Below, one piece after another: positions 12,799 through 13,373 of a stretch of DNA of 64,000 nt (position 1 is its first letter; every line of letters starts with the position of its first letter). The notes below the pieces were generated by a model. The model did no database searches. It was not told the origin of the DNA and was given only the letters and a program-made list of their open reading frames with translations. Origin of the DNA: Thermococcus profundus. GTDB lineage: Archaea; Methanobacteriota_B; Thermococci; Thermococcales; Thermococcaceae. The DNA is taken from contig NZ_CP014862.1 of NCBI RefSeq assembly GCF_002214585.1, forward strand, positions 372,001 to 436,000. Reading direction: 5' to 3'. Both the position numbers and the translations under genes were made by a program.

Positions 12799-13174
12799 AG
12801 GGGAGATAGACTTGGTTGACATAACCGCGGAGGTTGAGCGGGTCGTTGAGGAGAGCGGAATAGAGAACGGCCAGGTTCTCGTCTTCGTACCAGGTGCCAC
12901 TGGGGCAATAATAACGATAGAACACGAGAGCGGCCTTCTGGAGGACTTCAAGAGGGCTTTGAAGGAGCTGATACCGAGGGGAAAGGGCTACCTCCACGAC
13001 AGGATAGACGACAACGCCCACAGCCACCTCAGGGCCACTCTACTGGGCGCGAGTGAGTGCTTCCCCGTGGTGGATGGAAGGCTCGTTAGAGGAACGTGGC
13101 AGCAGATATTCTTCGTTGAGCTCGACGTGAGGCCGAGGCACAGGCGTGTTATCGTGCAGGTTGTTGGGGAGTGA
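12761..13174 (+). CDS. yjbQ: YjbQ/UPF0047 family protein, secondary thiamine-phosphate synthase type
   Basis: A 137-residue protein with the conserved UPF0047 pattern: GQVLVFVPGATGAIITIEHE, then YLHDRIDDNAHSHLRATLLG with clustered His/Asp, then GTWQQIFFVELDVRPRHR. The family forms trimers and can replace thiamine-phosphate synthase in some bacteria, although the native role is uncertain. The start is ATG 12761 after GGTGGTGGT, inside the end of the VanZ-like gene. Co-location with a ThiR-like regulator strengthens a thiamine role here. Confidence 0.85.
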   Translation: MKVHTEELRFSTEGEIDLVDITAEVERVVEESGIENGQVLVFVPGATGAIITIEHESGLLEDFKRALKELIPRGKGYLHDRIDDNAHSHLRATLLGASECFPVVDGRLVRGTWQQIFFVELDVRPRHRRVIVQVVGE

Positions 13175-13236
13175 GAACTGGCGATTCTCACCAGTTTATA
13201 AACTTTGAGAACTTTGAGTTCTCACCTTTTATAAAT
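13171..13236 (+). promoter_or_regulatory. Inverted repeats and TATA box downstream of yjbQ
   Basis: Two inverted repeats share the arm GAGAA. The first is GTGAGAA/TTCTCAC at 13171-13191, overlapping the yjbQ stop. The second is the perfect palindrome GAGAACT-TTG-AGTTCTC at 13207-13223. A TATA box TTTTATAAAT follows at 13227-13236. The first may act as a terminator hairpin; the second sits where an operator or upstream element for the next transcript would be. Confidence 0.5.
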
Positions 13237-13255
13237 GAACACTGGCATAACGGTA

Positions 13256-13366
13256 TTTGCCTGCTTTGGTTCATAGAATAAGGGGGTAATAACCCGCCCA
13301 AGTTCATCGGCTCCGCCTTCGGCGGCACTCCCCGGGCGGAGGGAGTAGGTGTTCATCCCTAAAAAG
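13256..13366 (+). ncRNA. Candidate structured non-coding RNA, GC-rich
   Basis: No open frame covers this gap. A TATA box at 13227-13236 predicts transcription from about 13256. The downstream sequence can form several hairpins: GGGTTATTACCC-type pairing at 13282-13295, CCGCC-TTC-GGCGG at 13313-13325, and ACTCCC/GGGAGT at 13327-13346. An alternative pairing joins CCGCCC near 13294 with GGGCGG near 13334. The segment is richer in G+C than its flanks, the usual mark of structured RNA in AT-richer intergenic DNA. No C/D or H/ACA box is convincing. Class unknown. Confidence 0.4.
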
Positions 13367-13373
13367 CTTCCGC

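Follow-up and report, generated by a model that had tools for sequence, protein, structure and literature searches.

A conserved RNA gene between yjbQ and a PLDc_N gene in Thermococcaceae, likely orthologous to Pyrococcus abyssi sRk11 and predicted to carry an L7Ae kink-turn

The gap between yjbQ and a PLDc_N gene in the analysed window (the whole stretch of 64,000 nucleotides) holds a real non-coding RNA gene, a single-copy gene retained by nearly all Thermococcaceae. The RNA occupies a core of about 58 nt on the minus strand (13280..13337, with its 5' end, G1, at 13337), as located by blastn and a covariance model, and it is likely the orthologue of sRk11 of Pyrococcus abyssi, with a predicted kink-turn of the L7Ae type. 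The direct evidence is comparative sequence for conservation, strand, promoter and kink-turn, and orthology for the start. The RNA most likely belongs to a predicted L7Ae-nucleated ribonucleoprotein, perhaps an H/ACA-like one. sRk11 itself has been known since 2011; what is added here is the evidence for a kink-turn and the likeness to the Pyrobaculum guide family PyrR204. This orphan RNA occurs in practically every Thermococcaceae member, matches no Rfam family and, in the literature surveyed, has no reported function 15 years after its discovery. The probable L7Ae kink-turn makes its role open to a simple binding test.

Conservation of the locus and identity with sRk11

Between yjbQ (UPF0047) and the PLDc_N gene lies a gap of 200 nt; it contains 13256-13366, a segment that the earlier note had described as a GC-rich structured island that may encode a new non-coding RNA. 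The gap is as described there, and the island is indeed richer in GC (59% in 13250-13349) than the first, AT-rich part of the gap (38-40%), with hairpins possible. Neither property is exceptional, however: the genes around the gap have as high a GC content as 13256-13366, 59% being ordinary for coding DNA here, and the 111-nt segment has folding z scores against shuffled sequences of -0.80 on the plus and -0.52 on the minus strand, neither strand being better. Because the neighbours are equally GC-rich and the fold is no better than shuffled, GC content and hairpins are not enough for an RNA claim; the locus is recognized as real by its conservation, which is not visible from a single sequence.

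When the whole gap was used as a DNA query against 60 relatives and its own genome, strong matches were obtained in nearly all congeners from about query position 101 on (13275-13373), and among the relatives 13175-13274 showed no conservation apart from a palindromic motif. Two palindromes of the form TGAGAAN(7)TTCTCA lie beside yjbQ at 13172-13190 and 13206-13224, the only ones in the window (0.08 expected); similar sequences occur in the gaps of several relatives, and they are possibly a regulator site or an intergenic repeat. A blastn search with 13276-13373 (E up to 0.001) returned matches in 91 of 94 Thermococcaceae genomes including its own, with 80-98% identity in the 90 others, and the conserved core was delimited as 13280-13337. 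The 86 loci fetched were reduced to 81 by removal of five same-place duplicates, other matching genomes being outside this set, and gave a gap-free alignment of 46 rows distinct over 58 nt.

The covariance model built from this alignment scored 91.7 bits at the window locus and recovered the RNA from 92 of the 94 genomes of the family, so that the conservation in relatives on which the earlier note had made its proposal depend is family-wide. In the rest of the class, all 21 genomes were without a hit, and the phylum search covers the same 115 genomes. Both family members without a match are incomplete, G006 at 53% and G077 at 69%. In G003, the third genome in which blastn saw nothing, the model detected a divergent copy scoring 49.9 bits. 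G115 carries an additional, partial copy that an N run interrupts. Among named genomes, a scan by pattern picked out 18 stretches, each with Thermococcus, Thermococci, Thermococcaceae or Thermococcales as its title. Rfam assigned no family to the locus at gathering score, and the proposal of a structured non-coding RNA gene is supported.

One of the matching genomes, which we take to be P. abyssi GE5, carries the RNA at 197484-197425 on the minus strand, with the upstream ORF from 197536 and the downstream ORF from ~197248, 181 nt past RNA position 56. Open reading frames overlap the core (62 aa in this genome), and a protein-coding reading was set aside because the changes track base pairs. 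In P. abyssi, sRk11 is listed in the region 197248-197534 as a leftward RNA of 50 nt with a TATA element (Phok 2011, Table 1, PMC3124441). The same source gives a 5' start at 197484 by primer extension, Northern verification, expression about equal in all growth conditions and conservation in all seven Thermococcales compared. The start base, the strand and both gap borders agree between that genome and the published RNA, and for this reason the window RNA is regarded as the sRk11 orthologue; locus type, Thermococcales conservation and size class, 50 nt on the Northern blot, are shared as well. The difference lies in the kink-turn, which the main text of PMC3124441 does not assign to sRk11, naming kink-turns for sRkB and sRkC and a K-loop in sRk52. 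An orthologue described in 2011 thus leaves no room for the claim that the RNA is new. Eight Pyrococcus orphan RNAs were detected in T. kodakarensis according to Jager 2014 (PMC4247193).

Predicted structure and kink-turn

The structural model comprises a 5' hairpin interrupted by an internal loop and a short 3' hairpin. The basal stem pairs positions 1-4 with 39-42, 5 with 37 and 6 with 36 (5' arm 13332..13337, 3' arm 13296-13302, position 38 bulged); 100% of its cells are paired, and pair 5-37 is found as G-U, A-U and G-C. Above it, G7.A35, G8.A34 and A9.G33 are followed by the bulge N30 A31 U32 and by pair G10-C29. The non-bulged strand G7 G8 A9 G10 (13328..13331) is invariant at each position in all 46 distinct sequences; on the bulged strand, C29-N30 A31 U32-G33 A34-A35 (13303..13309), the residues C29, A31, U32, G33 and A34 are equally invariant (46/46), A35 is conserved in 45 of 46, and N30 is free. 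The apical part (13310..13326) consists of R12-Y28, seen as AU in 29 and GC in 17 sequences and never mismatched, and of a 5-bp hairpin, 13-17/21-25. The 3' tail GGGUUAUUACCC (13284..13295), with GGGUU invariant in 46/46, forms either a short hairpin (43-46/51-54, 96.2% of cells paired) or a single-stranded guide; it is followed by T in most genomes and by TT in 76 of 81 loci.

The Kt-7 class of kink-turns, named from 23S rRNA, has the consensus C-NNN-GA-A / G-GA-G. The same arrangement, with A.G at the third position, is predicted in sRk11, the two differing in RNA context and in that the fold of sRk11 is derived here from sequence comparison. The combination G8 A9 / G33 A34, G10-C29 and N30 A31 U32 is present in all 46 rows, the exception being the G003 copy, which stands outside the alignment. 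That copy (L097 1501-1556) has lost A26 G27 as well as two bases within 8-10, which are probably the non-bulged strand's GA. Its promoter looks intact, it lies directly before a gene of the EamA cluster discussed below, and it is perhaps decaying. The bulged-strand 8-mer CGATGAAC is also present, identically, in Pab19 (RF02794, 36236-36339 in the window), a canonical Thermococcales H/ACA sRNA. A genome-wide search with the kink-turn pattern was too loose to be informative, giving 2118 matches against 986 in a backward control.

Pairing in the model reaches 99.0% of cells, compared with 96.5% in shuffles, none of 500 of which was as high, and changes on both sides of a pair involve 21 cells in three pairs. 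Compensatory changes of 15-23 (GC to UA) and 17-21 (CG to AU) occur once each on the tree, which was built from a 1200-nt piece of 23S rRNA in 56 of 60 genomes (G003, G079, G080 and G095 left out). For R12-Y28, parsimony on this tree counts five changes for the pair and five for each column alone, so R12 and Y28 changed together.

An alternative is that the conserved RNA adopts the minimum free energy (MFE) register, with pairs G10-Y28, Y11-G27 and G7-C36, and that it has no kink-turn and no relation to L7Ae. This register, without the GA pairs, is the one that both MFE folding and RNAalifold choose, and 98.6% of its cells pair. The substitution pattern argues against it: 10-28 and 11-27 vary one-sidedly, whereas 12-28 varies on both sides together; only four cells in two pairs are changed on both sides; and 5-38 fails in three of 46 rows, 5-37 in none. 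Moreover, G8 A9 A31 U32 G33 A34 would be invariant although unpaired, and the commonest changes on the tree, partnerless ones at N30 (13) and Y11 (11), affect positions that are free in the kink-turn model. We therefore consider the MFE register unlikely, and, judged by sequence conservation, sRk11 very probably carries an L7Ae kink-turn. Kink-turns in general are reviewed in PMC4316175, and PMC5539422 reports L7Ae RIP-seq. The predicted kink-turn of the 5' hairpin would be bound by L7Ae, and the RNA would work in trans as a ribonucleoprotein.

Genomic context, promoter and strand

In 73 of 81 loci the RNA is preceded by a gene of its own strand, at a distance of 27-44 nt in 48, and this upstream gene varies by clade. 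It encodes PLDc_N here; others, recognized from their sequences, are presumably an aminotransferase, ribose-1,5-bisphosphate isomerase and deoxyhypusine synthase. The downstream gene likewise differs between clades and is on the same strand in 52 of 80 loci. A stand-alone, trans-acting gene fits this context best.

A cis-acting, riboswitch-like leader of the downstream gene would be suggested by nine of 80 loci, where an ORF on the RNA's own strand begins no more than 20 nt past it. In seven of the nine, and additionally in G003, which is not counted among them, the downstream gene falls in one cluster whose tested member is an EamA transporter. The change of downstream gene between clades, its location on the same strand in only part of the full set, the convergent orientation of yjbQ, which is the downstream gene in the window, and the ~50-nt RNA seen by Northern in P. 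abyssi (PMC3124441) make such a leader very unlikely.

Upstream of the RNA, 29 sequences less than 65% alike were anchored on position 1 of the minus strand. Information peaks appear at -35..-32, at -28..-24, and also at -10 and -8, with A/T at 100% at -27 and 97% at -26. The first two correspond to a BRE-like element (13372-13369) and a TATA-like element (13365-13361), which together span 13361..13372 on the minus strand and reach into the 3' end of PLDc_N. The close same-strand spacing to the upstream gene would also suit a processed fragment of its 3' UTR, PLDc_N in the window; the BRE/TATA pair, conserved at the right distance from G1 despite clade-varying upstream genes, leaves that origin little credit.

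On the other flank, 54 divergent sequences showed no conserved promoter, their only clear signal being a 3-nt T-tract at positions 57-59, where the RNA ends. The core folds at -25.0 kcal/mol on the minus strand (z -1.20, which speaks against exceptional stability) and at -17.8 kcal/mol (z +0.95) on the plus strand. Among 13 unambiguous pairs, wobbles number four G-U against one A-C, a weak count alone. The promoter and the fold, together with the 5' end published for P. abyssi, place the RNA on the minus strand. The earlier note had instead drawn a plus-strand RNA beginning at 13256 behind a good TATA box (~13228-13235), and its strand and promoter are wrong: a TATA-like stretch, TTTTATAAATG, does lie 20-30 nt before 13256, but it is not conserved, and the promoterless flanks on that side, the poorer plus-strand fold and the published sRk11 on the other strand make this the least credible of the alternatives. 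Transcription would start from the RNA's own minus-strand BRE/TATA promoter at 13337 and run to near 13280, giving an RNA of ~50-60 nt.

At three loci (L010, L046 and L072), a TnpB/OrfB_IS605-type sequence abuts the 3' hairpin of sRk11 at the same base, with RNA positions 1-53 intact. Pfam, run on the L072 protein alone, identified PF07282 and PF01385. The left ends of the elements were not found at these three loci, and the reading frames of the L010 and L046 elements look broken. Identity among the three elements is just ~76% over 1.2 kb, and the host genomes fall in separate places of the 23S tree, a pattern that suggests repeated insertion of TnpB elements at the sRk11 gene.

Likeness to H/ACA-like guides and possible targets

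Canonical guide RNA classes do not describe sRk11, in agreement with the earlier note, which had seen neither a C/D nor an H/ACA pattern. A C box (RUGAUGA) occurs in none of the 81 loci and CUGA in one. An ANA box is found in none of the 81 at 14 nt and in one at 15 nt from the GA stem, and the model contains no lower stem closing a pocket with both guides, so that canonical H/ACA membership fails. By the same two features, sRk11 differs from Pab19. By the rules given in Toffano-Nioche 2015 (PMC4652768), the GA stem has 10 layers and the ANA box is 14-15 nt away; in H/ACA-like forms the lower stem is absent, the GA stem has 10 layers (8-13 seen) and 14% are without any box, productive guides having a GA stem of 10. 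PabO78, a '9/14' H/ACA-like RNA of the 2015 set, might or might not be the same RNA as sRk11. The GA stem of sRk11 has 9 pairs and one bulge, within a single predicted kink-turn hairpin without a lower stem, and, since by its published 5' end the RNA begins at the upper stem, a 5' guide has no place in it.

Atypical guides are where the earlier statement needs amending, as the hairpin resembles H/ACA-like guides of Pyrobaculum. Bernick reportedly dealt with such Pyrobaculum guides in 2012. With relaxed thresholds, PyrR204 (RF02802) was the only Rfam family above noise. Its alignment takes in the entire hairpin, RNA positions 1-42, with no mispaired bases; it scores 15.8 bits (E 0.27) compared with a gathering score of 71, and none of 41 genomes exceeded the cut-off. 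In these genomes, four of the seven sub-threshold matches fell at sRk11 loci; given the homology of those loci, the four amount to a single observation. Both RNAs have a kink-turn hairpin of the form GAG-N-R-(5 bp)-Y-C-NAUGA with a GA-stem bulge and no lower stem, and they differ in the 5' and 3' guide tails, in the extra A26 G27 bulge of sRk11 and in the low score. An H/ACA-like particle would thus be built on a kink-turn hairpin without a lower stem, like Pyrobaculum sR203-sR210, and the 3' tail would be its sole possible guide segment. Action as such a ribonucleoprotein is possible, and from this comparison we tentatively regard it as the likeliest of the mechanisms considered.

The tail segment GGGUUAU pairs 7/7 with AUAACCC-U at 23S position 2028, a rare exact fit, equalled by 83 of 5000 shuffled tails. 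In general duplex energy with rRNA the tail is unremarkable, since 19 of 60 shuffles do as well. Position 2028 is placed in helix 69 by the E. coli sequence. No report of a pseudouridine at U 2028 was found in the literature surveyed, and among P. abyssi pseudouridine sites lacking a guide, the passages considered here name only 2585 and 2603. No fit to the tail was found among 44 tRNAs. That sRk11 is a minimal stand-alone H/ACA-like guide of Thermococcales, a hairpin kinked by L7Ae without lower stem or ACA and with a 3' guide only, directing Cbf5/Nop10/Gar1 to this helix-69 site in 23S rRNA, is a rather improbable proposal. If true, it would put sRk11 in the class of a "new type of guide RNA" that Fujikane et al. 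2018 (PMC6138745) inferred for another site, psi2589 of T. kodakarensis, for which an L7Ae/Cbf5-dependent guide was still sought in 2018. On architecture sRk11 is a candidate for that guide as well, though its sequence does not fit the site. At the three offsets tried, no more than 2, 4 or 1 bases of the tail are paired, on which grounds the assignment was rejected; the whole RNA forms a duplex of -14.4 kcal/mol with the mini-23S-2589 sequence, a value reached by 315 of 500 shuffles.

In the phylum of G060, inferred to be Thermoproteota with the genus Pyrobaculum, 11 of 250 genomes gave PyrR204-like RNAs, eight of them over the cut-off, and 10 of the 11 loci were inspected. The tails at the over-cut-off loci, 5' GAGU in 8/8 and 3' UUCCCCGGC in 6/8, are not common to sRk11; PyrR204 was for this reason rejected as an orthologue of sRk11 and kept as an architectural analogue. 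A search of the phylum of G059 gave 0/151 with no positive anywhere and is hence uninformative. Three PyrR204-like RNAs lie below the cut-off at 27-38 bits (L132, L133 and G264:C4:62322-62369), two of these coming from beyond the family to which the over-cut-off genomes belong, and the PyrR204 Rfam family seems wider than its name.
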